Origin: a virus
Reading direction: 5' to 3' (one strand)
DNA length: 64,000 nucleotides
IMG/VR virus record: IMGVR_UViG_3300047444_000617
Span: 46,249-110,248 of that record
A program made the translations under genes and the position numbers. The notes below the pieces were generated by a model, which was not told the origin of the DNA, ran no database searches, and saw only the letters and a list, made by a program, of their open reading frames with translations. Below, piece after piece: positions 3,396 to 62,533 of this stretch. Numbering within the stretch: position 1 is the first letter of the stretch; every line of letters begins with the position of its first letter.

Positions 3396-3785
3396 TTACT
3401 TCGTGGCGGTCGGAGTTACGTCCGTCGTGTCCTTCGGGCACGGAATGGTCACGTGCGCGGAGTGGGTGTACTTGAGTCCGTTCACGACCGCGTAAGGCGT
3501 GTCCGTGGATGTGGGCGCCGGGGACGGACCGACCACGAAAGTCACCTTGCACAATCCGCCGGGATTCTGCGTCGCAGGTGCCTTTACGTACTTGATGACC
3601 GTGCGCGTAGGTTCCGGCGAGACGTCCGAAGAGAAATCCGATACGGATCTGGTGGTCTCCTGTACAGAAATTCCGATATGAAGTCCGCCAGAAGTCTGGT
3701 TCGGAATGCTAGCGATTCCGACTGCGGGAATGGCGACGAGAACTGCTGCGGCTGCTGCGGCCTTCAGGCCGTGGGGTATGGGCAT
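3396..3785 (-). CDS. Small secreted or membrane-anchored protein
   Basis: 129 residues from ATG 3785 (GGAG seven bases upstream); a longer frame exists but lacks a ribosome site. The N-terminus (MPIPHGLKAAAAAAVLVAIP) is a basic residue followed by a long Ala/Val/Ile-rich segment, so a signal peptide or membrane anchor. The mature part is Thr/Ser/Pro-rich with two Cys (CKVTF and IPCPKD) that could form a disulfide. It carries GLHI, encoded CTT CAT ATC, a variant of the repeated motif. Exported phage proteins of this kind may act at the cell surface, for example in superinfection exclusion, but nothing in the sequence proves it. Confidence 0.65.
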   Translation of the reverse strand: MPIPHGLKAAAAAAVLVAIPAVGIASIPNQTSGGLHIGISVQETTRSVSDFSSDVSPEPTRTVIKYVKAPATQNPGGLCKVTFVVGPSPAPTSTDTPYAVVNGLKYTHSAHVTIPCPKDTTDVTPTATK

Positions 3786-3835
3786 AATCCGACTCCAATA
3801 TCCTGCGGAAGAGTGAGAGGTACCTGCGGTATTTT

Positions 3836-3991
3836 CTACCCGCCGAGAAGCACCGTACCGAAGCCGTCGCAGTGCACGCAGTCGGCCCTGTCGCGGTCCT
3901 CCCCCGTGCCGTGGCACCGCTTGCACTCGACCTCGACGTCAGCGTCCTCGTCGCTGTCGGCGGAAGACACTGCATTCACGTACGTGCTCAT
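3836..3991 (-). CDS. Mini zinc-finger protein, DnaJ-type CxxCxGxG repeats
   Basis: 51 residues, too short for routine ORF lists. After an acidic N-terminus it has CKRCHGTGEDRDRADCVHCD then GFG, that is CxxCxGTG and CxxCxGFG, the zinc-binding pair of DnaJ cysteine-rich domains, here as a single zinc site. It starts 9 bases after the stop of the TGT-like gene, with CAGGGAGAG in that gene's last codons as possible ribosome site. A zinc-binding accessory or chaperone-like role is inferred. Confidence 0.65.
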   Translation of the reverse strand: MSTYVNAVSSADSDEDADVEVECKRCHGTGEDRDRADCVHCDGFGTVLLGG

Positions 3992-4000
3992 GAGAAGTAC

Positions 4001-5542
4001 TTACTCTCCCTGTTCGTTGAAGAAAGTTGGTACATCGACGACCTCAGCGTCGATGAATCCGCTCGACTGCTCGATCATCCGGTCCGCTGACATCGGACGG
4101 TCGAGCGTTGTCATCTGCTCCCCCGCGTCCCGCCCGAAGATCCGGCTGATCATCCCCGCCTGGGCGCCGTTCCCCTTGGCTTCCAGTTTCACGGAGAAGC
4201 CCTCCTGCTCCAGTTCGGTCTTGACCTTGACCAGTTTCTGAAGCCGGTCGATCTCGCCGGACAGGTTCGGATCCGCGTATCCGCCGGTCATGTCCTCGAC
4301 CATCTTCATGAAGAGCACCCGCTGCGCCTGCATCTCGATGAGCGAGTTCTGCAGCGACTGCATCTGCTGCTTGCTCTTCACCTGTACCGGGATGTCGTAC
4401 GCGCAGTTGCTGTGCTGGTCGTACGCCGGGCACTTCGAGGACAGGAAGCAGGAGGAGCACTGCCGCATGGACTGGCTGCGCACCGTGACCAGGGGGACGT
4501 CACGTTCCTTGTTGAGCCCGTCCTCGGGGTCGGTGTAGGTCTCCTTCTCCTGCACCAGGCCGATGACCGGCAAGTTGGTACGCGGCCGGTCCTTCCTGGG
4601 CATGGGAGTTGATACGCCGTTGAGCGGTTCGGAGTCCGCCGTACCAACTTCACCCCCCTGCAATTGAGCGAAACCGGAAAGTAGCCCGGAGGGGGAGGTA
4701 GTAACTGCTTCGGGTGAGTTCGGGCGGTGCTGCTCGATGGAGGCCGCCAACTGCTGCCACGACCAGATGGTGAAGCGCAGGACCTCGTCGTTGTCGCCGT
4801 CCTCGATCTTGTCGGCGTCGAAGCCCGCTTCTATGAATAGCGTGCGGTGCCTCTTTCGTGCCTGCTCCTTGTACTTCTTCGGGTAGCGCTTCAATTCCCG
4901 GCCGGTCCACACAATGGTGTCCCCGTATTGGCTGGGGGAAAGCCAGGAGGTCGACGCCACGCTGTCCCAGGTGACGGCTGCCATTTCCGCTGGCTTCGTC
5001 ATGGCGACGCCGTGGAGCAGCGTGCCGTATTTCCTGGTGATCTCGTTGAGGACCGGTGTGAGATTCCGTCCGTCGAGATCCGTCTGGGTAACTCCGACGC
5101 GCTTGTATCGCTGGGCGAGGCGGTCGAGTTCTTCGACTCCCCATTCCGCGTGCCATATGGGAAGGAATTTGTCTTCCGGGATGTCCTCCCAGAAGTCCTC
5201 CCGCATTGCGGCTATCCATTCGCGTCCGAGAACGACCGCGTCGAACTCGGACACCATATGAAGCGAGTCGATGTTCTGCTGGACGAACGCCATGTAGTGC
5301 GCGGCGATTTCCTTCAGTTCAGCGACGGAGTACTTGTCGTCCTCGGCCTTGTTCACCGTGTAGGCGCCGGAGTCCAGGAACACCTTCTGGTTGGGCAGGT
5401 AGTGGTCCTGGATCAGCCAGGGCCTGGAGAACTTGGTGCGTCGCCGCAGCCCCATGTACGACAAGGAGACGTTCTCCACGCCTTCCTCGGCCAGCATCTT
5501 CCGCCAGCCTGGAATCTCAGAGCCTCCCAGAAAGAGGTGCAC
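4001..5542 (-). CDS. TIM-barrel protein resembling tRNA-guanine transglycosylase / DpdA
   Basis: 513 residues, GTG start with GGAG nine bases upstream. Residues ~1-270 look like the TGT/DpdA barrel: VFLDSGAYT near residue 55 (compare the LDSGAF signature), FDAVVLGREW, and HGVAMTKPAEM followed by the strand SVASTSWLS around 195-215. DpdA proteins exchange guanine for a 7-deazaguanine in DNA; TGT does so in tRNA. The C-terminal ~200 residues are extra: a Cys cluster (CSSCFLSSKCPAYDQHSNC) that could bind zinc or Fe-S, then coiled coil. Contains LHM coded CTT CAT ATG. No queuosine-pathway partners are visible in the window, so substrate is open. Confidence 0.55.
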   Translation of the reverse strand: MHLFLGGSEIPGWRKMLAEEGVENVSLSYMGLRRRTKFSRPWLIQDHYLPNQKVFLDSGAYTVNKAEDDKYSVAELKEIAAHYMAFVQQNIDSLHMVSEFDAVVLGREWIAAMREDFWEDIPEDKFLPIWHAEWGVEELDRLAQRYKRVGVTQTDLDGRNLTPVLNEITRKYGTLLHGVAMTKPAEMAAVTWDSVASTSWLSPSQYGDTIVWTGRELKRYPKKYKEQARKRHRTLFIEAGFDADKIEDGDNDEVLRFTIWSWQQLAASIEQHRPNSPEAVTTSPSGLLSGFAQLQGGEVGTADSEPLNGVSTPMPRKDRPRTNLPVIGLVQEKETYTDPEDGLNKERDVPLVTVRSQSMRQCSSCFLSSKCPAYDQHSNCAYDIPVQVKSKQQMQSLQNSLIEMQAQRVLFMKMVEDMTGGYADPNLSGEIDRLQKLVKVKTELEQEGFSVKLEAKGNGAQAGMISRIFGRDAGEQMTTLDRPMSADRMIEQSSGFIDAEVVDVPTFFNEQGE

Positions 5543-5605
5543 GGTTGGTTTCTCCGAATCTTGTTCGTTGGTCCGGCAAGCCTATCCATTCAAGGCCTTT
5601 GCCTA

Positions 5606-6286
5606 TTACTTCTTGAGCGGCTTGACGGCGCTCGCGGGGAACAGGCCGGGCTGGGTGACGCGCGGCTTGCGGGCGGCCGTCGACTTCGGCTTGACCGCCT
5701 TGGGGCCCTCGCTGGCGGCCAGACCGAACTGCTGTGGGGCGCGGACCTGGCTCGGGCCGAACAGACCCTTCTGCACGGCGCGCTGCGGCGCCTTGGGAGC
5801 AGCCGGTGCCGGAGCCGACGGCTTGGCGGGGGCGGAGTACGGCTTGTCGAACTCGCGCAGGTCCTGCACCTGCGAGGGGTGCGGGGCGGCCATCGGTGCG
5901 CTGGTGTGGGTGCTCGGCCGGTTGAAGGCGTTGTGGAAGTCCTCCCACGCGCCGCCCGACGGCTTGCTCTGCGCCTGGATGGAGTCCATCCGGGCGTTGA
6001 AAGTATGAAGGAGGTCGGAGGCTGCGGCGCTGTGCTTGGCCTGCCAGGTGTCGGCGGAGCGGCTGAACGACTTGCCGACCTTCTGCACGTCGCCGCTGGG
6101 GGTCGAGGAGGGGGCCTGGGTGGGCGCCGGGGAACCCTTCGGGCCCGGTCGGCGGCTGGGGGTCCTGGCAGGGTTCTCCAGGGCGCTCAGGCGGTCCTCG
6201 ACGGAGCGCTTGCCGTGGAACTGCAGCGGGTGCAGGTAGCGGTCGCGGAACTGGGTGGCTATGGAGTGGAAAGCGAAGGCGCTCAT
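5606..6286 (-). CDS. Pro/Ala-rich hypothetical protein
   Basis: 226 residues from ATG 6286, which overlaps the stop of the membrane protein gene (ATGA). Composition is strongly Pro, Ala, Ser and Lys, with a predicted helical patch around DLLHTFNARMD that contains the CTTCATAC motif. The C-terminal half repeats short QKGLFGP / QPGLFPAS modules. Likely largely disordered, possibly a virion or scaffold-associated protein; function unknown. Confidence 0.7.
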   Translation of the reverse strand: MSAFAFHSIATQFRDRYLHPLQFHGKRSVEDRLSALENPARTPSRRPGPKGSPAPTQAPSSTPSGDVQKVGKSFSRSADTWQAKHSAAASDLLHTFNARMDSIQAQSKPSGGAWEDFHNAFNRPSTHTSAPMAAPHPSQVQDLREFDKPYSAPAKPSAPAPAAPKAPQRAVQKGLFGPSQVRAPQQFGLAASEGPKAVKPKSTAARKPRVTQPGLFPASAVKPLKK

Positions 6287-6582
6287 GGTCGGGTGTCCCT
6301 CCGGACGAAGTAGAGGTAGCGGTGTCCGGCCAGGAAGGAGGCGAGGAAACCGACGTTGATCAGTGACCGCGCCGAGGTGGCTGAGGTCAGGAAGACCGCC
6401 GTGAAGGCGACGACGTTGGCGCTGTAGACGAACAAGGTGGCGGCCAGCCACTTCTCCGCCCGGCCCAGCCGGTACCAGACGGGGAGGTTCGCGCGCAGCA
6501 GCAGTGCCGCGAAGGACGCGCCGGTCAGGACGGCGAGGATGCGTGCGATGGCGATGACGACGAGGTATCCGTAGGTGCTCAA
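6283..6582 (-). CDS. Three-helix membrane protein
   Basis: 99 residues starting at TTG 6582, with GGAG close upstream and overlapping the end of the preceding gene. Three hydrophobic segments are clear: YLVVIAIARILAVLTGASFA, WLAATLFVYSANVVAFTAVF and LINVGFLASFLAGHRYLYFV, with a basic C-terminus. Too short and too far from the endolysin to call a holin with confidence. Translationally coupled on both sides. Confidence 0.65.
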   Translation of the reverse strand: MSTYGYLVVIAIARILAVLTGASFAALLLRANLPVWYRLGRAEKWLAATLFVYSANVVAFTAVFLTSATSARSLINVGFLASFLAGHRYLYFVRRDTRP

Positions 6583-7073
6583 AGGATCTCCATGTGTGGG
6601 CGCTGGTCTTCTTCGCGCAGTGCTTGCTGACGCTCCACCTCCTCGCGCAGTACCGACCAGGGGGTGACGGTTTCCTTGTAGTCGGGCCGGAACCTGGGGG
6701 ATGCGTAGTTGGGGTGGAGGTAGTTCAGGACCGCTACGCCGTGGGCCATCACGTGCGCGGCGATGGTGGGGTCCGGCTCGATCAGCAGCTCGACGCTGCA
6801 CCCGGCCTGGCGGAGACGGGAGATCTGCTGCATCCGGCGCTCTCCGGGGTCTTCGGGGTCGCGGAGTTTCGCAGGGGTGATGTAGGGGTGCTTGTTGAAG
6901 CCGTTGACCCGCAGCCAGTAGTTGACCGGCTCGATGTCGGTGTCGTCGGTGATCAGGGCGACCTTGTAGGTCTCCATCAGGCCCCAGTACAGGCGCTGGC
7001 CCTGGTGGATGACGGCCTGTCCGACCTCCTTGGCCAGTACCCCCTCGACGACAATGGCGACGGTGGCGGTCAC
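6579..7073 (-). CDS. Hypothetical protein, possible HAD/PIN-like Rossmann fold
   Basis: 164 residues; GTG 7073 overlaps the TGA of the nucleotidyltransferase-like gene (GTGA). VAIVVEGVLAKEV near the N-terminus and KVALITDDTDIEP near residue 40 alternate strand and acidic residues as in HAD or PIN domains, but the canonical DxD is absent, so the assignment is weak. It sits between a nucleotidyltransferase-like and a membrane protein in one coupled operon. Confidence 0.6.
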   Translation of the reverse strand: MTATVAIVVEGVLAKEVGQAVIHQGQRLYWGLMETYKVALITDDTDIEPVNYWLRVNGFNKHPYITPAKLRDPEDPGERRMQQISRLRQAGCSVELLIEPDPTIAAHVMAHGVAVLNYLHPNYASPRFRPDYKETVTPWSVLREEVERQQALREEDQRPHMEIL

Positions 7074-8143: not shown

Positions 8144-8530
8144 TTACATCTTGAGGGCGGCGCGGAGCCGGGCCTCCTCGGCCTGCCGCTGCATGGCGGC
8201 GCCCGCCATGATCATCTGCTGCTGGGTGCGCTGGGCGGTCTCCATGGCCTGGATGTCCTTCTGCACCACGGAGGCCGCACCGTAGATGTCGTCGAAGGTG
8301 GCGCCTCGGTCCAGCACCAGGTCGAGGGCGATGGCGAGGTTGGCGTCCGCCACGACGGCGCCGTCCTTGCCGACGACGACGAGGAACGCGGTGGTGACGC
8401 GGGTGCCCGTCTCCTCGGCGGTGGGCGGGTTGTCCTCGGCCATCTTGGCCAGGGCCTGCTTCTGCTCGTCGGTGAGGTCGGTATGAAGCGGGGTGCTGGT
8501 GGTCTGGCCGAGGATCGGGATGTCAGTCAT
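8144..8530 (-). CDS. Hypothetical protein
   Basis: 128 residues. The N-terminus contains TPLHTDLTDEQKQALAKMAE with the CTTCATACC motif at codons 15-17. The middle has an alternating hydrophobic stretch (TTAFLVVVGKDGAVVADANL) typical of a small beta sheet; the C-terminus is a long amphipathic helix rich in Gln, Ala and Met, probably coiled coil. No known family recognised. Confidence 0.75.
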   Translation of the reverse strand: MTDIPILGQTTSTPLHTDLTDEQKQALAKMAEDNPPTAEETGTRVTTAFLVVVGKDGAVVADANLAIALDLVLDRGATFDDIYGAASVVQKDIQAMETAQRTQQQMIMAGAAMQRQAEEARLRAALKM

Positions 8531-9147: not shown

Positions 9148-10146
9148 TTACTTGCCGGTGGCCAGGTAGCGGCCGAGCAGGACGTAGGAGTCCCCGCCCG
9201 TCGCGCCCTGGATCGCGACCTGCTTGCCGTTGATGACGACCTGGCCCGCCTTGGCGTGCGTGTAGCCCAGGGCGGCGTTGGCCGGACCGCCGACCGCGAC
9301 GACGACGTCACCGGCAGCCAGAGCCGCCTTGGCCACGTCCACACGGCCGGTCGAGACGGCACCCTTGGGCTGGAAGGCGTCGGTTGCCGCCGCTGCCGTC
9401 AGGGTGTCGACAGCCTCGCCGAAGATGACCATGGTGTACGCCTTCGTGGGAGCAGGGGTAGGTGCGGGAACGGGCTTGGGGGTCACGGGGATGACCACCG
9501 GCGGCTTGTTGATGACCGGGACCGGGACGGGCTTCGGCTTGGGAGCCGGAATGGCCAGGGCGGCCCAGGTATGAAGGTCACCGTTGAACATGTCGTTGTC
9601 CAGGCCGCCGACGATGCCGTACTGGTGCAGCGTCCACACCTTCCACGGCCCGATCCTGGGGTGGCCCGCCGGGTTGGCCGGGTCGGCGATCCACAGCGGG
9701 TAGGACGTCAGGACGGCCTTGTTGGCCGCCGAGCACGCGGCGTAGACGTTGGTCATCCAGTACTCGTTGACGTACAGGATGGGAGAGGCACCGGTCTTGG
9801 CCTTCACGTGCGCCAGCCACCGCAGTGCGTACTCCGCCCGCTGGGTCCACGAGCCCTGATCCCACTCCAGGTCCAGCACCAGCACATCGCCGATGACGGC
9901 CTTGGCCTTGGACAGGAAGTAGTCGGCTTCCTTGATCGGGTCGTTGGCGGGGTGCGCGAAGTGGTAGTGCCCGATCGCCTTCTTCGCCTTGCGCGCCGCA
10001 GCCACGAACGTGTCGTGGTCCGGGTCGTGGAAGGTCAGGCCCTCGGTCGCCTTGGCGACGACGAAGGCGTTGCTGCTGCTGGCCACCGCAGCGAGCACCG
10101 TCTTGGAAGCGTTGACGTTCGCGACGTCGACACCGTGGAGAGACAT
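9148..10146 (-). CDS. Endolysin, GH25 lysozyme
   Basis: 332 residues. Residues 1-205 carry the GH25 features: GVDVA at the N-terminus, GHYHFAHP, the catalytic pair in VLVLDLEWDQ, and the terminal QYG...NDMFNGD. This hydrolyses the MurNAc-GlcNAc bond of host peptidoglycan. A Pro/Lys-rich linker (about 210-240) joins a C-terminal domain with TMVIFGEAVDTLTAAAATDA and VVVAVGGPANAALG, similar to cell-wall-binding repeat 2 domains. No signal peptide, so release depends on a holin; the holin candidate is ~28 kb upstream. DLHT at ~198 is the repeated motif. Confidence 0.92.
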   Translation of the reverse strand: MSLHGVDVANVNASKTVLAAVASSSNAFVVAKATEGLTFHDPDHDTFVAAARKAKKAIGHYHFAHPANDPIKEADYFLSKAKAVIGDVLVLDLEWDQGSWTQRAEYALRWLAHVKAKTGASPILYVNEYWMTNVYAACSAANKAVLTSYPLWIADPANPAGHPRIGPWKVWTLHQYGIVGGLDNDMFNGDLHTWAALAIPAPKPKPVPVPVINKPPVVIPVTPKPVPAPTPAPTKAYTMVIFGEAVDTLTAAAATDAFQPKGAVSTGRVDVAKAALAAGDVVVAVGGPANAALGYTHAKAGQVVINGKQVAIQGATGGDSYVLLGRYLATGK

Positions 10147-10151
10147 CTGAT

Positions 10152-10400
10152 TCAGAATCCTGCCTGCGCTGGAGGGGTCGGGACGTAGTTGGGGGTGTGC
10201 ACCGGCTTGCCGTCGGGGCGAACCTTGATCTCCTCCTCATGCCTCCCGTACCAGACGTCGTTGAGGTCGACGCGGGTCCGGGAGGTCAGGGAGTCGGTCA
10301 CGCCGATACCACCGCGCTCGGCGATGATCTTCTTGTACTTGCCGTCGGTCATTCCCTCCGACAATTCGGCGTTCATGCTCCGGGATGGGGCGTATGCCAT
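10152..10400 (-). CDS. Small hypothetical protein
   Basis: 82 residues; its ATG overlaps the TAA of the preceding 55-residue gene (TAATG). Charged, with a Pro-rich tail. It sits directly before the endolysin in a run of coupled small genes. No motif recognised. Confidence 0.7.
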   Translation of the reverse strand: MAYAPSRSMNAELSEGMTDGKYKKIIAERGGIGVTDSLTSRTRVDLNDVWYGRHEEEIKVRPDGKPVHTPNYVPTPPAQAGF

Positions 10401-10862: not shown

Positions 10863-12116
10863 TCAGAACAACCTCTGCTGGCCCGGGTGGACCTCGGTAT
10901 GAAGCCCGTTGCCCTTTCCGTAGGAGTTCAGGGAGGAGTCGTGGTTGTCTCCCCGTCGGCGCTTTTCCTCGCTCCACTGCGCGGACTGCATGTTGGTCAG
11001 CGAATTGAGGCCGCGCTCCGTCATCACCTTGCGGGCGACGTGGTCGTGGAAGGCGTGGATTCCCTTGATGCCCATGTAGGCCTCCTGGGACTCGCTACCC
11101 TTCTTGCTCTCCAGGTGCGGGGCGAAAGCGCCACCGCCGGAGTGCGTGTCGGATACCCAGAACTGCGACGAGCCGTGGGGGTCGACCCACGAGTTGTGAT
11201 AGGCGGAGACCTTCTCACCGGCTGTCGGCTTCCACGCGTCGGACAACTTCTCGCCGCCCAGGACCTTGTGCGTGACGTCGATGGCCAGCGCGTGGTTTCG
11301 CGGGTAGCCGTTGGCCGGGTACGCGCGGGTGTCCCCTTCCTTCTTCTCCAGTTTCGTGAACTGCTTGCCGCTGCGGGCGGTGACGGTCTTCTCGACCTTG
11401 TCCTCGCGCGGGACGTAGTAGTCGGGGTGGTAGTGGTACTCCTCGCCGGTGCGGCCCGACTTCGCCCACTGAATCGCGTGGGTGGCTGCCTCGTCGTTGG
11501 GGTAGACCGCCCTGCCCGTCTCCTTGTCCGGCCGCACGAACACGTTCTGCGGGGACGTGATGGCGTTGGCGGCGGCCTGCACACCGAACGGGACGCCGTT
11601 GTTCTTCGCCGACGTCTTCAGCCGCGCACGCGGGCTCAGGGAGCCGTTGCGGGTGTGGTCCTCGGCCGGGCTGTAGAAGGAGTCGTGGTGCCCGCCCTCG
11701 TGGTCGTACGCGCGGTCGACCTGGGCACCCAGAGCGCGGTGAGCCGACTCGGGGGTGACGCCGAACTTCGCGGCCGAGCGCAGCACGCGGGCCTGCTCGT
11801 GCGGCGCGAAGTCCTCCCACCGGCGATTGACCGGCATCATGTCGCGCGTGGGGTTCATGGTGTGCTGGCCGTGCCACACGTCCGACCCCTCCGGCCCGGC
11901 CAGTTCCATCTGGCCGTGCAGGTTGGGAGCCTTGTCGGTGTTGCCCATGAGCCGGTACGACTGCCGTGGGCTGGCGGCGGCCCCCGGCTTGTCCTGGATG
12001 GTCTGGAAGCGCTCGGGGTGCGCGCCCTCGAAGGACACGCGCTTGACGGTGGCGTCCTTGACCGTCTTGTTGTAGACGCGGGTCTCGGCCGCCTTCTCCG
12101 CTGGGGTCTTGGCCAT
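10863..12116 (-). CDS. Large hypothetical protein with C-terminal clamp-motif-like tail
   Basis: 417 residues. His-rich centre (DHEGGHHDSFYSP) and several Asn/Gly-rich loops; no catalytic signature I can name. The last residues, GQQRLF, resemble the Q-x-x-L-F sliding-clamp-binding peptide. GLHTEV shortly before is the repeated CTTCATACC motif. The ATG overlaps the TGA of the small gene upstream (TGATG). Possibly a virion-packaged protein. Confidence 0.75.
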   Translation of the reverse strand: MAKTPAEKAAETRVYNKTVKDATVKRVSFEGAHPERFQTIQDKPGAAASPRQSYRLMGNTDKAPNLHGQMELAGPEGSDVWHGQHTMNPTRDMMPVNRRWEDFAPHEQARVLRSAAKFGVTPESAHRALGAQVDRAYDHEGGHHDSFYSPAEDHTRNGSLSPRARLKTSAKNNGVPFGVQAAANAITSPQNVFVRPDKETGRAVYPNDEAATHAIQWAKSGRTGEEYHYHPDYYVPREDKVEKTVTARSGKQFTKLEKKEGDTRAYPANGYPRNHALAIDVTHKVLGGEKLSDAWKPTAGEKVSAYHNSWVDPHGSSQFWVSDTHSGGGAFAPHLESKKGSESQEAYMGIKGIHAFHDHVARKVMTERGLNSLTNMQSAQWSEEKRRRGDNHDSSLNSYGKGNGLHTEVHPGQQRLF

Positions 12117-14590: not shown

Positions 14591-15193
14591 TCAGGCCTGG
14601 GCCAGGATCTCGTGCACCTTGGTATGAAGGTCCTGGAGGTCCCCGTCGTTGACCAGGTGGGAGTCGAACCACTTGTCGGGCAGTTCCTTCTCCGACTTGT
14701 GGTCGTTGACGGCGCCGTAGCCGGGCCGGGTGATCTTGATTAGCAAGCCCAAGCGAGAGTCGATGGCCTGGTGCTCGTTCTCGAACCGCAGGTCGGTGAA
14801 GACGTAGCGCTTGCTCTTGTCCAGGCCCTTAAATGCGGCCTCGACCCACACGTCCTGGCTGATCATCTCCCGGCCGACCTCGGTGCCCAGCACCTGCAGC
14901 ATGCGGCGGATCTCGTCGTAGGTGCGCTTGGCGTCCTCCCAGCCGATCTCGTCCACGATCTCCTGCAGCCGGAAGTCCCGGCCGTAGGAGTCGGACAGGA
15001 TGACGGGGTTGAGGACGTACAGGGCCTCGCGGAGGGTATCGGCGAAGGCGACTCGCTCGTACCCGTACTCGGTCAGGATCCGGGCGACGGCGTCCTTGCC
15101 GGTTCCGGGGTATCCGTGGAGGCCGATGAAGCCGGGCAGCCACTCCAGGATGACCTGGGGAAGCCTGTCGGTGGGGGAAAGCGTGGTGCTCAC
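14591..15193 (-). CDS. Deoxynucleoside monophosphate kinase
   Basis: 200 residues from GTG 15193 (GTGA overlap with the upstream gene). GLHGYPGTGKDAVARIL is a P-loop with the Asp after GK typical of phage dNMP kinases (T4 gp1-like); YVFTDLRFENE fits the later motif. It phosphorylates dNMPs to dNDPs, completing dNTP supply along with ThyX and the ribonucleotide reductase in this window. DLHTKV near the C-terminus carries the CTTCATACC motif. Confidence 0.88.
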   Translation of the reverse strand: MSTTLSPTDRLPQVILEWLPGFIGLHGYPGTGKDAVARILTEYGYERVAFADTLREALYVLNPVILSDSYGRDFRLQEIVDEIGWEDAKRTYDEIRRMLQVLGTEVGREMISQDVWVEAAFKGLDKSKRYVFTDLRFENEHQAIDSRLGLLIKITRPGYGAVNDHKSEKELPDKWFDSHLVNDGDLQDLHTKVHEILAQA

Positions 15194-15746: not shown

Positions 15747-16447
15747 GGGGCGACCCTTCCCCAGCCCACGAAGGCCTGGTATGTCAGCGGGAAGTACTCG
15801 GCGAAGGCGGCTTCCATCTCCAGCGCCACCTTCTCGATCTCGTACTGCGGGAAAGAGGCGAAATGGGCGCCGGGGTTCTTGGTGCGCAGGGACAGGAAGT
15901 GCATCAGCGAGCGCGGGTTGCAGGTGGCGTAGAACGCGGTGTAGGTGCCGACCGGCAGTACGTTGCGTGCGACCTCCTTGGCCACGCCCGCCTTCAGCAT
16001 GCGTTGGTAGGAGGACCACGCGGCGCGGTAGACGCTCTCGTGCTCCCAGCGCGTGATGCCGAAGTGCTCGTGGGTGCCGGGGACGAACGTGTACTGGCCT
16101 GGCTTGCCCTCCTGCACCAGCGGGCGGTCGTGCGTCGGGACGTAGAAGTGAGGCTCCAGTTCCCGGTACCTGCCGGAGGTCTCGTTGTAAGACCACCCGG
16201 CCCTGTGCCTCATGAACTCCCGAGCCACGAAGATCGGGGCCTCGATGAGGAACGACAGCGAGCCGTGCTCGAAGGGGCTGCCGTGCCGGTTCTCCATGAG
16301 GTAGTTGATCAGGCCCCCGGCCTCCCCCGACTCCGCCGCAGCGGAGCCGAGGGTGGACACGCGAGCCGCCTGGCAGATCTTCGCGTCGGACCCGGCCAGG
16401 TTGTCCAGGTCGAGCGTCGCGGAGAGGTCTGAGCGGAGGGTGGTCAC
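15743..16447 (-). CDS. thyX: Flavin-dependent thymidylate synthase ThyX
   Basis: 234 residues from GTG 16447. The ThyX motif RHRxxSxNExSxRY is present as RHRAGWSYNETSGRY near residue 80, preceded by HGSPFEHGSLSFLIEAPIFV. The enzyme methylates dUMP to dTMP using methylene-tetrahydrofolate and FAD/NADPH. Coupled upstream to the RNA ligase gene (GTGA) and downstream to a membrane protein. Common in large actinophages. Confidence 0.95.
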   Translation of the reverse strand: MTTLRSDLSATLDLDNLAGSDAKICQAARVSTLGSAAAESGEAGGLINYLMENRHGSPFEHGSLSFLIEAPIFVAREFMRHRAGWSYNETSGRYRELEPHFYVPTHDRPLVQEGKPGQYTFVPGTHEHFGITRWEHESVYRAAWSSYQRMLKAGVAKEVARNVLPVGTYTAFYATCNPRSLMHFLSLRTKNPGAHFASFPQYEIEKVALEMEAAFAEYFPLTYQAFVGWGRVAP

Positions 16448-19202: not shown

Positions 19203-19590
19203 CCTCCCCGTCGGCTTCGTCGTCGTCGTAGTCCGACGGGATGCGGTCCGGCCAGACGGCTTCGAGGTCTTCCCGGCTCGGGGCACTTGCGAATCTCCAG
19301 TCCTTCTTGGGTACGAACCTCCGGATGTAGGCCCGTTCCAGGACGCTCAGACCGCCCCAGATTCCGTAGTGCTCGTTGTTGACGAGCGCGAACTTCAGGC
19401 ACTGTTCTCGCAGCGGGCACACCCGGTCGGTATAGGTGCCGTTGCAAACGTGCTTGGCCTGCGACCGGCTTCCTGTGCCGTCTCCGAAGAAGTCGTCGTG
19501 GTCCCTGGTCGGCCGGAACTTCCGGCAGGAGGCCTCCTTTTCAGGCTTGCCTCCGCCATCCCACTCCGGTGCATTGATACGCAGGTGCAT
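19153..19590 (-). CDS. WhiB-like transcription factor
   Basis: 145 residues from ATG 19590 (TAATG overlap with the resolvase stop). Four Cys in WhiB order: SCRKF, KHVCNG, then RVCPLREQC, followed by the hallmark YGIWGGLSVLERAYIRR turn and basic region; the second-third Cys spacing is longer than the usual CxxC. WhiB proteins bind a 4Fe-4S cluster and partner with the primary sigma factor. The C-terminus is a highly acidic tail (DYDDDEADGEDGEPGGDEED). Phage WhiB proteins can block host WhiB2-controlled septation; here the role is inferred. Confidence 0.85.
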   Translation of the reverse strand: MHLRINAPEWDGGGKPEKEASCRKFRPTRDHDDFFGDGTGSRSQAKHVCNGTYTDRVCPLREQCLKFALVNNEHYGIWGGLSVLERAYIRRFVPKKDWRFASAPSREDLEAVWPDRIPSDYDDDEADGEDGEPGGDEEDLLAAAG

Positions 19591-35307: not shown

Positions 35308-35390
35308 GTGCGGGGTACCTCCTGTGGTGGGTGGACGATGAGCAGGCTAACACAGTTACCGTTTCCTGAATACCTGCTGAAAATGCGTAA

Positions 35391-35418: not shown

Positions 35419-35428
35419 TCCGGGTCGG

Positions 35429-50207: not shown

Positions 50208-50293
50208 CAGGCACCCACCGCAGCAGAGACTCGGTGAGAGTTTCGGAAGTGGGGCCCAGGGCCCCACGTATGAAGTCGGTCAGTGATAGCCAT
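50207..50293 (-). CDS. Micro-ORF between tape measure and baseplate genes (MAITDRLHTWG...)
   Basis: 28 residues. ATG 50293 overlaps the tape measure TAA (TAATG) and its TGA overlaps the next ATG (TGATG), so every base of the gap is coding. Starts MAITDRLHTWGPGPHF, with CTT CAT ACG in frame, then a His/Arg-rich end. No family recognised. Confidence 0.65.
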   Translation of the reverse strand: MAITDRLHTWGPGPHFRNSHRVSAAVGA

Positions 50294-53262
50294 TAGTTTC
50301 CTGCCGCGATGAGATTGATTCGGTCGTCCTCGGCGATGGCCTGGATGAACTTCTGTGCGGCATCTCGGGCCGACTGCTGGTCCATGGCACCCTGCACCTT
50401 GACCACGACCGAACCGGCGTGGAAGTTGAGGGTGGGCGTAGCGCCCTTGGTATGAAGCCCGCCGACTCCCCCGGTAAGCGGCGTGTTCGACGCCAGCGAC
50501 TTGCGGAGAGCCTCGGCCTGGTAGGCGGGGATGATCATCTCGCCCTTGTGGACGCGCGCCGTCTGGTCGACGTCGATGTTCGCCGAGCCGACCGCGTACC
50601 CCTTGTAGGATCCGCCGTTGGCCATGCTCTTGATACCGGGGGCGTTGGCCAGGGAACCGTATCTGGATTCCTCGTACCGCACTCCGGCGATGATGTTGTC
50701 GACCGGGTTCCAGATGTTCTTGTGTCCCGGAAGTGCGTATGCGTTGAACGTGGAGTCGATCGTCTGCATGATGCCCTTGGACGGGTGTCCCGCCTTGGCG
50801 TTGGCATCGGTGTTGTTCTGCGAGCGGGGGTTTCCCCCGGACTCGTGCATGGCGATGGTGTTCACATACCGCTCATTCGCGGGCGTGTCCTGCTTCAGAA
50901 TTCCCAGGGCGCTCTTGATCCACGTCTTGAGGTTCCCGCTAGGCAGCGGGCCGGAGGCGGTCGAGCCGTTGTCAGTGTTGCGGGAGGAGTGCTGCCCGGC
51001 GCCGACACCGGACGTCAGGTTCGCTGCGCCGATCGTGGAGATCCCGGCCGCGATAGCGTCGACCTCCTCGGTGGACCCGTAGTTGCCGACGTCCCCGCCG
51101 AAGCCCATGGTGGACAGCCGGTTGGATGTCGACCCTGCGGTGTCGGAGTTGTCGTTGGCCTGGTCGTTCATGTTGCCGACCGAGCCCAAAATCCGGCGGG
51201 CGTTGGTGAACTCGCCGGGGCTGAAGGAGCGGATACGGACCGAGGCGCCTGTGTGCGGGGCTTCCAGGCACTTGCCATTGCCGATGCACAGCACCACGTG
51301 GTGCGCGGGATTGCCGACGAACATCAGGTCGCCTGCACGCACCTGGTTCATCGGGACGGCCTTGCCGACTTTCTGCTGCTGGGCAGCGGTACGCGGCAGG
51401 CTGACACCGATCTGCTTGAAGGCGAACTGCATCAGGCCCGAGCAGTCGAAGCCGGTCTGCGGGCTGCCACCGCCCCACTTGTACGGGGTGCCCAGGTACT
51501 TCTCGGCGATGCGGATAACGGCGGCTGCGGTCTTGCCAGCACCCTGGGTGCCTGTGGCAGCGGCCCCTCCCCCGCCCGCGCCGGTAGCAGCAGCGGCATT
51601 GCCGCCCGTTCCGCCACCGAAGATGCCCGCGAGCGCGCCCACACCTGCACCGATTCCCGCGCCGATACCGGTTCCGATGACAGGGACGACCGAGCCGATG
51701 GCGGCACCGGTGAGCGCGCCGGTCGCGGTGTCCACCCCGACGTGCGCCAGCTTGTTGCTGGTCTTGCCCTTGACGTGCTTGTCGATGACCTGGTTACCGA
51801 AGTGGTGCACACCCCATGCGCCCAGCCCGTACGCCCCGGCCTTGCCGAGGGTGCTCATGGACAGGTTCAGCATCCCCCCGCCTGCCCCGCCGGGCATTCC
51901 GAGCAGTCGGCTGGCCGAGCCCAGACCCCGGGCGATCCCCAGGGCGCCGAGGCCTCCGCTGATGCTGGATCCGAGCAGCGACCCCGCGCCCCCGGCCCAG
52001 CCCATGATGCCGTCCGCGCCGGACACCTGGAGTATCTTCTGCAGCGACGTGGAGAAGGCGTCCAGCGCCTTGGTGGCGCCCTGAAGCCCTTCGGTGAAGG
52101 CGTCGTTGATGTTGACGTCCTGGTTCCGCAGGGTGCCCGCACGGGTCATCAAGGTGTTGGCCGTCGAGCCGCCGATACCCATCTTGCCGAGGGCGGACTG
52201 GGCGGCGTTCTTCTGCTGCTGCGTCTTGCCGTTGTCACGCTGGTTGGCCAGGTTGGTGTACGTCTGCGCGGTGCCACCGTGCACCTGGGCCAGCAGCATG
52301 CCCTTGAGTTCGCCCTTGACCAGTTCCAGGGTGTTGGCGTCCAGGCCCCACGAGTTCAGCGACTGGTTCAGGCCGGACGCGGGGTCGTCGAGGGTCGCCG
52401 ACAACTGTGCGGCGGTCGTGACCCGCTTGAGTTCGGGGAAGCGCTGGTAGATCTGCTGGGCGATCTGGCGGGGGGTCTGCTTGCTGCCGTTCTTGATCGT
52501 CTGGATCCCGAAGCCGCGCAGGGTGTTGTAGGTGCCTGCGTTCCATGCTGCGGCCGTGCCCTGGGCGCGCTGCGCCTGGGACATCCCCGGGTTCACGTAG
52601 CCGGAGGTGCCCTTGATGTAGTTCCACTGGGTGTTGTACGCGGACGTGCCCGGCGACAGGCCCATCTGGGCCATGATCGAGTACGCCTGCGCGGCGTCCT
52701 GGGTGGACTGGGCGGTGAAGTTGTTCTTGAACGCGGCGTCGCGCAGGTTGTGCCAGGACTGGGAGGAGTACTGCGCTGCCTGATAGGCGGTGGTCTGCAT
52801 CGTGACCTGGTCGGGCAACTCCTTCTGACCCCACTTGACGATGCCCTGCAGGCCGCTCTTGAAGGTGGGTCGGCCGCCGTTGTTGGCCGCGCCCCCACCC
52901 ATGCGCCGGGTACCGGGCCCGGAGCCGCCGGAGCCTCCCTGCCCGCCGTTGTTGCCACCGCCGGTGTTGCCCACCAGGGTCAGGGAGCCGGAGGTGAAGC
53001 GGTACGTACCGCCGTTGCCGAAGCGCGAGCCTCCCTGGCCGCCGTTGGGCTGGGAGTTGGCGAAGTTGCTGGTGCCGTTCCAGACGTCTCCCAGGGCGAG
53101 GCCGATGCCCCGGGCACGGGAGACCTGCCCGATGCCGGTGTTGACCCCCTGGAGCCCGCGCGTGAGGTCGTTGATGGTACGCGTCAGGGCAGAGATCGAA
53201 TCCTGGGCCTGATTGAACCCAAGAAGCGAGCCCTGCCCTGCTACGGTGCTCTCGCTAGTCAT
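50293..53262 (-). CDS. Tape measure protein with NlpC/P60 and lytic-transglycosylase domains
   Basis: 989 residues from ATG 53262 (GAGG upstream). Gly/Asn-rich start, helical middle, Gly/Ala-rich hydrophobic part (GALTGAAIGSVVPVIGTGIG). Residues ~580-690: FDCSGLMQFAFKQIGVSLPR and NPAHHVVLCIGNGKCLEAPH, an NlpC/P60 peptidase. Residues ~810-900: ANERYVNTIAMHESGGNPRS then GIMQTIDSTFNAYA, a soluble lytic transglycosylase domain. GLHTKG near the end is the repeated motif. It sets tail length and opens the wall. Confidence 0.92.
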   Translation of the reverse strand: MTSESTVAGQGSLLGFNQAQDSISALTRTINDLTRGLQGVNTGIGQVSRARGIGLALGDVWNGTSNFANSQPNGGQGGSRFGNGGTYRFTSGSLTLVGNTGGGNNGGQGGSGGSGPGTRRMGGGAANNGGRPTFKSGLQGIVKWGQKELPDQVTMQTTAYQAAQYSSQSWHNLRDAAFKNNFTAQSTQDAAQAYSIMAQMGLSPGTSAYNTQWNYIKGTSGYVNPGMSQAQRAQGTAAAWNAGTYNTLRGFGIQTIKNGSKQTPRQIAQQIYQRFPELKRVTTAAQLSATLDDPASGLNQSLNSWGLDANTLELVKGELKGMLLAQVHGGTAQTYTNLANQRDNGKTQQQKNAAQSALGKMGIGGSTANTLMTRAGTLRNQDVNINDAFTEGLQGATKALDAFSTSLQKILQVSGADGIMGWAGGAGSLLGSSISGGLGALGIARGLGSASRLLGMPGGAGGGMLNLSMSTLGKAGAYGLGAWGVHHFGNQVIDKHVKGKTSNKLAHVGVDTATGALTGAAIGSVVPVIGTGIGAGIGAGVGALAGIFGGGTGGNAAAATGAGGGGAAATGTQGAGKTAAAVIRIAEKYLGTPYKWGGGSPQTGFDCSGLMQFAFKQIGVSLPRTAAQQQKVGKAVPMNQVRAGDLMFVGNPAHHVVLCIGNGKCLEAPHTGASVRIRSFSPGEFTNARRILGSVGNMNDQANDNSDTAGSTSNRLSTMGFGGDVGNYGSTEEVDAIAAGISTIGAANLTSGVGAGQHSSRNTDNGSTASGPLPSGNLKTWIKSALGILKQDTPANERYVNTIAMHESGGNPRSQNNTDANAKAGHPSKGIMQTIDSTFNAYALPGHKNIWNPVDNIIAGVRYEESRYGSLANAPGIKSMANGGSYKGYAVGSANIDVDQTARVHKGEMIIPAYQAEALRKSLASNTPLTGGVGGLHTKGATPTLNFHAGSVVVKVQGAMDQQSARDAAQKFIQAIAEDDRINLIAAGN

Positions 53263-53434
53263 TCCCCGCCTCAGCAAATCGTCTGTGTCGCTGCGCTCTG
53301 AACCACGTCATCCAGTGAATGCGTTCGCGCACGGTCAACCGGCGAATTTCGCTGAGGCTCCACGCCGGACTTAGTTCGACTAGTTGCTCGTATTCAAAGT
53401 ACGTGTCGTGATAGTTACAGGCCCTGAAACAGGT
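53255..53434 (-). CDS. Tail assembly chaperone extension read by probable +1 frameshift
   Basis: 59 codons open in the +1 frame beyond the 53415-54278 gene, ending TAG over the tape measure start (ATGACTAG). There is no start codon near its beginning; the frame opens only 30 bases before the upstream stop, and that window contains GGGGG (53435-53439), where tRNA-Gly on GGG can re-pair after +1. The product continues TCFRACNYHDTYFEYEQLVE. It fills the gap before the tape measure, the normal place for this arrangement. Confidence 0.65.
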   Translation of the reverse strand, partial: TCFRACNYHDTYFEYEQLVELSPAWSLSEIRRLTVRERIHWMTWFRAQRHRRFAEAGND

Positions 53435-54278
53435 CCCCCGCCGAGATCATCAGGGGGACCTCCTTACCGCACGAATCGTGCAGGAACTTGACATCATTGT
53501 ACTGAGGGCCTGGCTGCTTTTCCTCAATGGCGTCGAGGATTGAACGGCGGTCGACGATGCCCAGCGAACGCGCGAATTCCGGGTTTCCGGTCACCGCGTT
53601 CTCCGTGCCGTCGGCCTCGACGACCGAGATCAGGCAGCGCGAGAGCAGGAGGGTGTTCTGCTCGGACTCGGTGGCACGGTCGACGACCGCGAGGATCGCC
53701 TTCTGGTCGGAGCCCACGGGAAGACGCACGAAGGCCTTCCGGTTCCGGCGCAGTTCCACCTCGAAGACACGCTGGGAAGGATCCTCCAGGCGCCGGATCG
53801 GGATCTCGTCGAGGGTGACCGCCAGGCGGAACTCGTCGCCGCAGAACGGGCAGGTGTAGCGCTCCCAGACGATCTCCTCGCCGTACGTGGCGCGGCGGAT
53901 CTCCAGCAGCAGCATGTCGCGGTCGCCGAGCAGGAGGTTGTCCAGGACGGTGGGACCGGAAGGCTCGTCGCCGACGGTTACGGTGCCACATGAAAGCAGC
54001 GTGGTGATGAATGTGCCGACGCCACCGGAGCGCGCCTTGGTGATGGCTTCCTCGTCGGCCCCGGTCAGTTCACGTACCTCGGCGTCGTAACGCGCGTTGG
54101 TGAAGTCGCCGCCCAAGACGTAGCCCCCCGGCAGGCGGAACATGCCTCCTGCCGGGGGTGCGATCTCGGGCTTCTTGACCTCTTCGCCCCCGGCAAGCAT
54201 TGCCGCGATGGCGGCGTTGGCTGCAACAGGGTTGCTGAGGGGGTTGACGTACCCCTCGGTATGAAGGTCGTTAGCCAC
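53415..54278 (-). CDS. Tail assembly chaperone / tail protein with zinc ribbon
   Basis: 287 residues. NDLHTEGYVNPLSNPVAANA at the start carries the repeated motif. RYTCPFCGDEFRLAVTLDEI and LHDSCGKEVPLM give three Cys of a ribbon, and the frameshifted tail would add TCFRAC. Directly upstream of the tape measure, where tail assembly chaperones lie in nearly all long-tailed phages. Its length is larger than most, so it may also be a baseplate assembly factor. Confidence 0.6.
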   Translation of the reverse strand: MANDLHTEGYVNPLSNPVAANAAIAAMLAGGEEVKKPEIAPPAGGMFRLPGGYVLGGDFTNARYDAEVRELTGADEEAITKARSGGVGTFITTLLSCGTVTVGDEPSGPTVLDNLLLGDRDMLLLEIRRATYGEEIVWERYTCPFCGDEFRLAVTLDEIPIRRLEDPSQRVFEVELRRNRKAFVRLPVGSDQKAILAVVDRATESEQNTLLLSRCLISVVEADGTENAVTGNPEFARSLGIVDRRSILDAIEEKQPGPQYNDVKFLHDSCGKEVPLMISAGDLFQGL

Positions 54279-57218: not shown

Positions 57219-58022
57219 TCACTTGAGGCCGTACCACTGGGATCCCCAGCCGCCGGTGATGAGAGTCGTCGTCATGGTGCTCAGGTCTATTGACGAAGGC
57301 AGCGAGGTCAGCCCGGAAAGCATCGACGCGAGAGTGAGATGCGGCGCGGCCAGACCGGAATTCGCGGTGACGCCACCGCCGCAGGACTTGAACTGCAGGC
57401 TTGTGGTGAAGGTGCCGTTCAGGAGAAGCGCGATGAAGTACTCCCCGGCAGGAGCGGCGTATGCGCTGGTGAAGTTCACGCTCTTCGGCGTTGCGGAACT
57501 CATGAGCGTGGAGGAGATGTCAGCAGTGGCCGCGCGAAGCGTCCCGGTGCTGTCGTAGACGCCCAGGTAGGAGTTCGTGACCGGACCGGTCGTATCGACG
57601 GCCGACAGTCCGAACAGGATGCTGTTGAGGGTGGCCGCGTGCCGCAGCAGCGCGCGGTGCAGGGTGAGTTTGCCCGGCGCGTTGGCGAGGCTCGGTGTGA
57701 CGCTGGTTCCCGCGTTGAGCGGGTTGTAGTTGGCCCACACCAGGTTGTTGTCGTCGGGCATCCAGTTGCCCACGGTATGAAGGTGCCCGGCGTCCGCGTA
57801 CAGGCCGGTGCTTCCGGCGCTGGACACGGGACCTACCGCAGTGGTCGACGTGCCGACGGCCGACTTGGCCAGGTAGGTGGCGGCGTTGGTGGTGGCAGCC
57901 GCCGCGAGGTCTGCAGCCTCCTGGGTTGCGTCGATCTTGCCCGTGTTCAGGGCGGTGAGGTCCGCGTTGATCGTCGGACCCCAGTTCTGGTCTCCGACGT
58001 TGGGGAGCGTGACGCTGGTCAT
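57219..58022 (-). CDS. Tail fibre-like / structural protein
   Basis: 267 residues from ATG 58022. MTSVTLPNVGDQNWGPTINA then Ala/Thr-rich heptads (ADLAAAATTNAATYLAKSAV) is the start typical of phage fibre proteins. GHLHTVGNWM carries the repeated motif. The C-terminal 150 residues are beta-rich. Its place among head-tail genes is unusual for a fibre. Confidence 0.6.
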   Translation of the reverse strand: MTSVTLPNVGDQNWGPTINADLTALNTGKIDATQEAADLAAAATTNAATYLAKSAVGTSTTAVGPVSSAGSTGLYADAGHLHTVGNWMPDDNNLVWANYNPLNAGTSVTPSLANAPGKLTLHRALLRHAATLNSILFGLSAVDTTGPVTNSYLGVYDSTGTLRAATADISSTLMSSATPKSVNFTSAYAAPAGEYFIALLLNGTFTTSLQFKSCGGGVTANSGLAAPHLTLASMLSGLTSLPSSIDLSTMTTTLITGGWGSQWYGLK

Positions 58023-60606: not shown

Positions 60607-60617
60607 CCCGCGCGACT

Positions 60618-60657
60618 ACCAACTCAGCGCAGGGACCGTGGTCCCTACAATCAGTTG
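60618..60657. terminator. Hairpin at the end of the capsid gene
   Basis: ACCAACT/AGTTGGT (60618-60624, 60651-60657) encloses AGGGACC-GT-GGTCCCT (60631-60646). It overlaps the capsid stop codon. Confidence 0.5.
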
Positions 60658-61634
60658 GTCTCCGCGATCAAAACGGCCTGGTCCGTGATCAAGCCGAGGC
60701 CCCAGATCGCATACCAGGCAAGGGCGTGCTCACGCCCAAAGTCGAGAATGCCGCCGTCCCTCAGTTCGACCGGCAGCGAGATCGCGTGGCCGAATGCGTT
60801 GTCGCCCAGGAAGATGCTCTGGTAAACCGTCTTCCCGCCGGAGTTGACGACCTGCTTGACCTGGGTGGTCTCGATGAAAACGACGTCGTTGAGGCGTCCG
60901 ATCTCACCCAAAAGGAAGTTCCCCGGGGCCGCGTACTTGGTCACCTCGATGAATTCGGGATCATCGCGCAGGCGGCGGGACTGGTGCGGGTGGACGAAGG
61001 ACACATAGGTGTCCCCGAGGCGCGGGACGTTCTTGGTCGCGAGTGTTTCCACCGCGTCCTTGACGAGGGCGGCGGTGAAATCGAACGTGCCGTCCAGGGC
61101 GTCGGTTCCGGTGGCGGCGGTGCCGTGGTCGTACGGCGAGATCGCGGTACGCGCGGTGAGGGCGTACTTGTTGTAGCCCCAGATCTTGCTGGACGCCTGC
61201 AGCAGGGTGTCCCTCGCCGACTGGTCCAGGTAGAGAGCCATGTTTCGACCCAAAAGCCGCGAAGCGGACGCCATCACGTCGTCGAACGAGGCGTTCAACA
61301 GCAGTTCGCTGACGGCCACGGCGTAGCCGTGCTCGGCGACGGTGATGCTGAACTGGGAGGCGGAAAGGGCGTTGGTCTGCATCCGAACGCCTTCGACCAA
61401 CTGGCTGGCCGAACCGAGGTTGTTGTACCTCATGAAATTGATCGTGAGGCCGGGCTGGACGCCGAGTTCGGTCTTCTTCACGGCGAATTGTTCGAAGCGA
61501 AGGATCGGCATCGACTGGAACAAGATTTCCTTGCTCCAGATGGTCTGGATGGCAGCACCAAGGGTGCTGTTGGCGCCCGAGTAGTTCGTCGGAGAAGCCG
61601 ACAGGTTCGGGGTACCAGTGATCGCGCTTGGCAT
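60651..61634 (-). CDS. Major capsid protein, N4-gp56 family
   Basis: 327 residues. IWSKEILFQSMPILRFEQFA, GLTINFMRYNNLGSASQLVE, GYAVAVSELLLNASFDDVMA and TYVSFVHPHQSRRLRDDPEF match the N4-gp56 type of HK97-fold capsid proteins. No cleavable N-terminal extension is obvious. Flanked by scaffold upstream and hairpins downstream. Confidence 0.92.
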   Translation of the reverse strand: MPSAITGTPNLSASPTNYSGANSTLGAAIQTIWSKEILFQSMPILRFEQFAVKKTELGVQPGLTINFMRYNNLGSASQLVEGVRMQTNALSASQFSITVAEHGYAVAVSELLLNASFDDVMASASRLLGRNMALYLDQSARDTLLQASSKIWGYNKYALTARTAISPYDHGTAATGTDALDGTFDFTAALVKDAVETLATKNVPRLGDTYVSFVHPHQSRRLRDDPEFIEVTKYAAPGNFLLGEIGRLNDVVFIETTQVKQVVNSGGKTVYQSIFLGDNAFGHAISLPVELRDGGILDFGREHALAWYAIWGLGLITDQAVLIAETN

Positions 61635-61669
61635 ACTTGGATTTCCTTAGTTACGGGTACTCGACCGGA

Positions 61670-62533
61670 TTACGAGTACAGTCCACGCTGGTTCTGGGCT
61701 GCCTGTCCGACGCCCAACTGGCCCCGAATCTTGGCGTACTCCGACATCGGCATCGCCGAAAGGTCGGCAAGGGAGTACGACTTGTGCCCCGGATCGGTGT
61801 CCATCGGTCCCGTGGTGGAATAGCCCGTGGGGCTCACACCGCGCATTGAGGCCCGCTGCTGAATAGCGGCCTGCTGGACCGATTCCAGGATAGCCTGGGT
61901 CTTTTCCTTTACGGTATTGATGCTCGATTCGACCTCGGCCTGGGTGTTGCCGGTGACGAAATCGAGAAGTTCCGGAGCGATGTTTTCCTGCTCCTCGCCG
62001 ACGCGGCGCTGGATGTAGGACTGCAGGGCGTTGAACTCCTGCTCCTTGGCGAAGAGCGCCCGCTCCTGTGCACGCTCCTGCTCGAACTGGGTGAACCTCG
62101 CAGTCCACTCCTGCTCCTTCTGGGCCAGGAGGTCCTTGGCGGACATGTCAGCCTCGGCCAGGGCCTTGGCCTGCGCGGCGGCTTCCTGACGGCGCTGCTC
62201 CTCCTCGGCCTGGGCGGCCTCGCGGGCGGCGCGCTGCTGCTCGATCTCGTCGAGGAACTTCTTGTTCTGGGTCTCGACGGACTCCAGCCGCTTGTACAAC
62301 TTGTCCTTCTCCTCCTGCCGCGCCCGCTGGATGTCCTCGGCGGTGAACCGGGGCTCTGCGGGGGCCGGAGGGGTGGTCGGCTCGACGACAGCGGCCGGGA
62401 TGGTGATGACGGGGTCGCCACCCTCACCAGGCTGCGGAGCGCCACCGGCGATGTTGTAGATCGGGAAGCCGTTCTTGCGGTGGCCCAGCACGGTCATGGC
62501 GGGCAGCGAGATGCCCTGGGTATGAAGCGACAT
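61670..62533 (-). CDS. Capsid scaffolding protein
   Basis: 287 residues from ATG 62533. MSLHTQGISLPAM at the start carries the repeated motif. Residues ~70-190 are Gln/Glu/Ala-rich coiled coil (AAREAAQAEEEQRRQEAAAQ). The C-terminus (SLADLSAMPMSEYAKIRGQL) is the capsid-binding end typical of scaffolds. Between portal and capsid, as expected. Confidence 0.87.
   Translation of the reverse strand: MSLHTQGISLPAMTVLGHRKNGFPIYNIAGGAPQPGEGGDPVITIPAAVVEPTTPPAPAEPRFTAEDIQRARQEEKDKLYKRLESVETQNKKFLDEIEQQRAAREAAQAEEEQRRQEAAAQAKALAEADMSAKDLLAQKEQEWTARFTQFEQERAQERALFAKEQEFNALQSYIQRRVGEEQENIAPELLDFVTGNTQAEVESSINTVKEKTQAILESVQQAAIQQRASMRGVSPTGYSTTGPMDTDPGHKSYSLADLSAMPMSEYAKIRGQLGVGQAAQNQRGLYS

Follow-up and report, generated by a model that had tools for sequence, protein, structure and literature searches.

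A reading-frame-locked octamer in phage genes and its association with a HicA-like protein gene

A window of 64,000 bases (G000:C1:46249-110248) within the 110,248-base virus record IMGVR_UViG_3300047444_000617 carries a dispersed octamer, CTTCATAC on the coding strand, which lies in the genes of this phage in one reading frame only, switches in concert between groups of related phages, and is matched in type by a single phage gene for a small HicA-like protein. These three features stand in the sequence comparisons without mechanistic inferences. The explanation we favour, with moderate confidence, is that an orphan RNA-binding protein of the HicA type, encoded by the phage and likeliest an endoribonuclease, recognises the octamer, in frame, within the phage's own translated mRNAs.

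The octamer was noticed in a sequence-only reading of the window, which counted 27 copies of GTATGAAG on the + strand, none on the − strand, and 30 copies of the shorter TATGAAG. Direct recounts returned the same figures, against an expectation for GTATGAAG of 0.49 over both strands (maximum 3) in dinucleotide shuffles of the window. Genes called at the octamer sites in the window, using our own simple codon-usage caller, all run leftward, hence the coding-strand octamer is CTTCATAC. In the whole record the coding strand has 35 copies of CTTCATAC and six of CTTCATAT, and the opposite strand a single CTTCATAC. The reported lack of opposite-strand copies is therefore correct for the window but not for the record, where the single copy lies in the sense of an opposite gene; likewise, the octamer itself is real but its core is broader than first described, CTTCATA[C/t], with information extending to SG-CTT-MAT-AYC-K across 182 non-redundant sites. 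Tags number about 40 per genome, usually one a gene, and are two- to three-fold enriched within the first and last 15 codons of genes, the pattern expected of three residues that the proteins simply tolerate. A chance origin is ruled out by the dinucleotide and synonymous-codon shuffles, and the observation is real and stronger than originally reported.

Every copy within called genes lies in phase 0, read as CTT-CAT-AYN, and the window copies outside called genes occupy phase 0 of short open reading frames (ORFs) of 10–28 codons, except for that at 3676. Short ORFs with an in-frame tag that the caller missed encode MTLHTCGGCP, MRLHTYGGPC, MRLHTRAVA, VVRLNT and MTAALHT, each followed by a stop. 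Shuffling synonymous codons, with proteins and codon usage kept, gave a mean of 0.33 phase 0 copies (maximum 2) in the record phage (G000) where 35 were observed, and means of 0.02 and 0.19 in the two other phases; in a second phage, G049, 36 were observed in phase 0 versus 0.18 in the shuffle. The single CTT-CAT phase noted at the outset thus holds for every copy in a readable gene, surviving the shuffle and the search of the other strand and other phases of the record, and the suggestion that such a lock points to a ribosome-linked tag in translated mRNA is supported.

Each genome examined has one opposite-strand copy, in a small oppositely transcribed gene beside the integrase, in that gene's own sense and frame. 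The small proteins encoded beside the integrase differ widely among phages, each with exactly one in-frame motif. Because the motif switches strand with the oppositely transcribed gene, the signal tracks transcription and reading frame rather than a strand of the DNA. Since motif orientation follows gene direction, there is no support for the Chi-like or packaging polarity signal raised in the sequence-only reading, or for one resembling FtsK-orienting polar sequences (KOPS).

The nearest cultured relatives by portal protein are the Streptomyces phages BRock, pSt2308, GiJojo, Alone3 and LuckySocke (58–61%), from which we infer Streptomyces as the host. Our comparison set consisted of equally close IMG/VR portal relatives, mostly 92–98% identical at the amino acid level, and these fell into a C-group with CTTCATA[C/T] and without CTTAATAC (G000, G001, G002, G003, G004, G011 and G012) and an A-group with CTTAATA[C/T] and 0–1 copies of CTTCATAC (G006, G007, G008, G009, G010 and G013). 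Of 76 distinct C-group sites, 30 aligned to CTTAATAC in the A-group and 14 to A-group non-motif sequence, so that 30 of the 44 distinct sites that can be aligned have switched in concert from C to A, changing His to Asn in each protein. A concerted switch of this kind indicates selection on the nucleotides and not the peptide, in keeping with the first description of the motif. A conserved peptide motif is further contradicted by the occurrence of L-H-T, L-H-I, L-H-M, L-N-T and L-L-x with fixed codons, and in-frame insertion of a mobile element by the conversion of sites base for base. In a count of motif-matching copies, non-motif states having been counted separately in the site alignment, the octamer is all but invariant among C-group genomes (position 8 being C or T), while neighbouring wobble positions are about 70–80% identical. 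The lone CTTCATAC in A-type genomes (G008, oriented 6639; G009, oriented 57754), in a PLLHTAP context, is either an unconverted relic or a recombinant.

The frame lock could have been inherited from CTTAATAC, for which the other frames are closed: phase 1 gives a TAA stop and phase 2 needs TTA, a codon that none of the called G000 genes uses (0 of about 32,000 codons). However, CTTCATAC leaves both other frames open, hence C-type sites could have arisen in any frame, and about ten sites apparently gained within the C lineage are all in frame 0, which argues that the lock is not merely inherited. Such gains occur by ordinary substitution, with CTGCACAC, encoding Leu-His-Thr in most relatives, becoming CTTCATAC through two silent changes in single lineages.

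To find genes tracking the motif, ortholog families of C- and A-type genomes were ordered by how far the lowest identity within the groups exceeded the highest identity between them. One family, G000_149, was a strong outlier among 120, with a margin of +25.6 points; the next reached +5.8 and +2.4, and the rest were negative. The gene lies outside the window (record 10029–10238, minus strand) and its product is 69–97 amino acids in all copies, within the 50–100 residues of single-domain HicA proteins. The 285-amino acid family G000_82, which at first seemed to diverge most between groups, was discarded as the A-motif phage G049 has its C-like form. HicA type predicts motif type in all 25 contigs with the gene, many of which were not used to form the idea: C-type contigs found through the gene all have CTTCATAC and no CTTAATAC, and A-type contigs all have CTTAATAC and at most one CTTCATAC. 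In G049, whose copy shares 73% identity with the A-type, the coding strand bears 37 CTTAATAC. The copy in G048 is 45–51% identical to either type, and this genome has neither CTTCATAC nor CTTAATAC; its top k-mer by de novo counting was CTTCTAG (32 sense, 7 antisense), read CTT-CTA-G in 28 of 30 genic copies versus 1.2 expected (in-frame z = 22.5). An in-frame codon-pair scan placed the CTT-tag first in every tested genome with the HicA-like gene (z 10–31), with none of five control genomes above z = 8.8. In the C-group the motif also closes the HicA-like gene (CTTCATATCTAA or CTTCATATCAACTAA), as it does in G049 (CTTAATACC). A long conserved inverted repeat, CATCCCGGGTACC...GGTACCCGGGATG, directly follows the gene in most phages inspected (record about 9880–10020).

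Motif-less relatives (BRock and ten others) had no HicA-like gene at E 0.01, and six actinobacterial prophage regions with a 60% identical terminase, mostly from Streptomyces, had neither gene nor motif; G028 and G031 gave marginal HicA matches and no locked motif. Homologues of the HicA-like protein were sought in bacterial genomes and in a phage collection, with none found in either.

The frame lock would also follow from a signal read by the ribosome alone, a three-codon pause with the C/A difference reflecting host or phage tRNAs. The CAT/AAT switch does concern codons of phage tRNAs for His and Asn, and phage tRNA-His was found in C-group genomes only, though not in all. It was not found in G000, G001 and G011, which speaks against tRNA-His as the switch, CTT-CTA in G048 does not fit, and flanking positions −2, −1, +8 and +9 also carry information; we therefore consider a ribosome-only signal very unlikely. 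The tRNA-His (gtg) is 86 nucleotides long with a long, class II-like variable arm (L093:8973-9058, L103:1737-1822, L124:9573-9658), and was found in four (G002, G003, G004, G012) of the C-group genomes that were examined, but in none of the A-group.

Returning to the HicA-like protein as the candidate reader, its family matched PHROG 353, a ‘toxin’ family, at E 0.001–0.0016. An AlphaFold2 model of modest confidence (predicted local distance difference test, pLDDT, 72) has the order helix-strand-strand-strand-helix of HicA, which resembles a double-stranded RNA-binding domain, and its top Foldseek matches were 1WHZ (probability 0.94, template modelling score 0.56) and 2HJJ, the closest structural relatives of HicA (PMC3969222). 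In Burkholderia pseudomallei HicA, Gly22 and His24 are required for toxicity, with Trp15 at a set spacing (PMC3969222); W23, G30 and H32 match this spacing and are invariant in all phage copies. We take the protein for an orphan of the HicA type, most likely an endoribonuclease. RNA-seq of E. coli toxins showed a strong bias of HicA for cutting before the first codon position, and the authors ask for HicA's ribosome independence to be reconsidered (PMC8546651). This codon-register bias, found independently of our analysis, is the property that a frame-locked tag requires and would explain the lock. A HicA-like protein that only binds the tag, to repress translation or to protect or activate phage mRNAs, would show the same association of protein type and motif type; the fold is an RNA-binding one, and the tag shows slightly less base pairing than controls matched for AT content (0.64 versus 0.56, p = 0.03). 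The invariance of the counterparts of the Gly22 and His24 toxicity residues speaks for cutting, and we regard binding alone as unlikely.

Several observations weigh against recognition of the octamer by a HicA-type endoribonuclease. The score against Pfam HicA (PF07927/COG1724) is 14.1 bits where the cut-off is 27, the A-type protein had no HicA hit in the Pfam profile search, and the Foldseek E-values are weak (0.14–0.33). No adjacent HicB partner was recognised in maps inspected by eye, and the two neighbours scanned, as 110-residue pieces, had no PHROG match. Known HicA specificities are poorly defined and the motifs of E. coli toxins short, whereas the motif here spans 8–12 nucleotides. 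A-group HicA-like genes end in CTTAATCTC (CTTAATCT, not the octamer), and that of G048 has no CTTCTAG at its 3′ end. The C- and A-type phages form largely two clades, so that one event, with the G048 case in addition, may account for the switch. Independent motif switches are few (C/A, and G048), and near-duplicate contigs from similar metagenomes are numerous. Finally, why a phage would target its own late mRNAs is a guess.

Additional evidence comes from the 5′ untranslated region (UTR) of a gene for a protein of 228–242 amino acids with DUF2637 and helix-turn-helix (HTH) domains (L010, oriented G000 80148–80260, record about 29990–30101). Here an upstream ORF terminates in the motif, which base-pairs with an anti-motif: C-group sequences have CATACC...GGTATG and A-group sequences AATACC...GGTATT. 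Across nine sequences the switch position is a C-G pair in five and an A-U pair in four, and is never broken. This hairpin is followed by a second and then by a stem over the start codon; the upstream genes differ, yet all end in CTT[C/A]ATACC-stop. As the anti-motif GGTAT[G/T] covaries with the tag type, a phage small RNA pairing with the tag in trans could be envisaged. However, no conserved non-coding RNA was found to contain the full complement, exact antisense copies sit in the oppositely transcribed gene, and pairing needs no reading frame, making this the least probable of the alternatives, and highly improbable.

A tyrosine integrase (PF00589) and a large serine recombinase lie side by side on the minus strand of the record (L009:4155-5231 and 5556-7049). 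Other genomes have their serine recombinase on the opposite strand, behind the small variable gene that always has one motif, and the tyrosine integrase had no counterpart in the motif-less controls G020, G021 and G022. Integrases, copy number, spread, orientation with transcription and subgroup variants all match the stoperators of cluster A mycobacteriophages (PMC6550527), which would make the octamer an asymmetric DNA site where a phage repressor blocks transcription elongation. That reading leaves the strict frame lock unexplained, including the approximately ten lineage-specific gains and the micro-ORFs of 6–10 codons; no DNA-binding protein separates the C- from the A-group, whereas the HicA-like protein does, and the hairpin with its compensatory change points to RNA. 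We judge DNA-level repression to be quite unlikely.

If the octamer is instead the target of the HicA-like protein, the protein may read the tag on ribosome-engaged mRNA and cut or block there, in which case only one frame would work. The C-type protein would act on CUUCAUAC and the A-type on CUUAAUAC, each on matching, translated, frame 0 tags alone. The contact between protein and tag, the cutting, the need for translation and the silencing or immunity purpose are inferred. The sites, about 40, fall in late, middle and integrase-region transcripts, and a tag-free block of 15–19 kb occupies the same place in five genomes, ending at the UTR element in G004 and G049; we guess that it is the early region. 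Together, the sites and the block suggest, with less certainty, that mRNA is the target of a genome-wide off switch, in which case the system would parallel the stoperators at the RNA level and the C/A variants would be specificity (immunity) groups. More tentatively still, we propose a frame-locked mRNA address system, in which an orphan HicA-family protein silences about 40 tagged phage genes by reading an 8–12 nucleotide tag solely in the translated frame, with tag and reader co-evolving (CTTCATAC, CTTAATAC, CTTCTAG), as an RNA-level immunity replacing DNA-level repression.

If true, this would be a new layer of phage gene control, exerted through translation, and an orphan HicA-type protein would gain a physiological target set; the motifs and in vivo targets of HicA are unknown according to a 2024 review (PMC11594946). 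The debate over whether HicA depends on the ribosome, which is still open, would be affected as well. Nature already offers a specificity swap in the C/A pair, and the tags could be used as programmable off switches that work in frame.

The sites in the window are all on the minus strand and, where a called gene covers them, in frame 0 (window positions throughout). The A-group has CTTAATAC opposite the CTTCATAC copies at 8481–8488 (codon 15 of gene 8144–8530, with flank indels), 9569–9576 (gene 9148–10146), 10897–10904 (13 codons before the end of gene 10863–12116), 14622–14629 (near the C-terminus, gene 14591–15193), 19636–19643 (gene 19590–19934), 20083–20090 (last codons of gene 20070–21254), 22774–22781 (ribonucleotide reductase gene 21402–23366), 47541–47548 (gene 46187–48046), 50450–50457 (near the C-terminus, tail gene 50293–53262), 54259–54266 (codon 5, gene 53415–54278) and 62520–62527 (codon 3 of gene 61670–62533, downstream of the portal gene). 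Other genic CTTCATAC copies are at 6003–6010 (gene 5606–6286), 16586–16593 (16444–17154), 26222–26229 (codon 14 of the DNA polymerase gene, 24286–26268), 27247–27254 (26595–27398), 28055–28062 (27634–28161), 29310–29317 (29120–29464), 32046–32053 (31700–32668), 33897–33904 (32888–34156), 35225–35232 (34648–35307), 36888–36895 (36629–37795) and 57775–57782 (57219–58022). That at 31388–31395 (codon 6, gene 29767–31410) is a synonymous gain, most other phages having CTGCACAC or CTGCACCC. Short ORFs hold CTTCATAC at 21270–21277 (the 10-codon micro-ORF MTLHTCGGCP, just upstream of gene 20070–21254), 34630–34637 (VPHEQRALHTRLRTTAERT, then a stop), 36494–36501 (codon 5 of MPLPLHTYRLGRAGN, then a stop) and 50268–50275 (codon 7 of a 28-codon ORF, MAITDRLHTW..., upstream of the next gene). 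The variant CTTCATAT occurs at 3676–3683, where no gene was callable, at 5256–5263 in a queuine tRNA-ribosyltransferase-like gene (4001–5497; CTTAATAT in the A-group) and at 38387–38394 (gene 38206–38697).

Two further elements were seen in these phages. A cyclic di-AMP (ydaO/yuaA) riboswitch (RF00379, 55–72 bits) is conserved in seven of the genomes, lying between tRNA genes at L010:1130-1269 (record 21130–21269, minus strand) and found also in L093, L103, L106, L120, L124 and L175; it adjoins the gene for a secreted LysM protein of 220 amino acids (G000_130) whose C-terminal domain resembles, by eye, the NlpC/P60 type. The 884-amino acid terminase of G048 (oriented 33427–36081, L166-L170) has an insert with intein-like features at the ATP-binding loop (ARQ/SGKS).

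Among known systems, the stoperators and the Rep repressor of cluster A mycobacteriophages such as L5 and Bxb1 share approximately 30 asymmetric, genome-wide sites oriented with transcription, subgroup site variants which track the regulator, and actinobacterial phages as their setting (PMC6550527). The corresponding traits here are the 35:1 orientation and the agreement of HicA type with motif type in all gene-bearing contigs. Stoperators are, however, frame-indifferent DNA sites for an elongation-blocking repressor, whereas these sites lie within genes, are frame-locked both against the synonymous null and in lineage gains, and have a candidate reader with an RNA-binding fold. The HicA mRNA interferases of HicAB systems resemble the phage protein in size, order of secondary structure, G-x-H and W spacing and best structural match (1WHZ), and differ from it in the recognised HicB partner, the sub-cut-off Pfam score here, and the long, specific site at about 40 places in the phage's own genes.

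The RegB endoribonuclease of phage T4 cuts GGAG in Shine-Dalgarno sequences, mostly of early mRNAs. It too is a phage RNase acting on phage mRNAs in post-transcriptional control (PMC3014915), but the tag described here is in coding sequence, in frame, and absent from one, possibly early, block. The ribosome-dependent interferases of the RelE family likewise tie cleavage to codon position, but have another fold and short specificity (PMC8546651), and no RelE-like gene is implicated in these phages.

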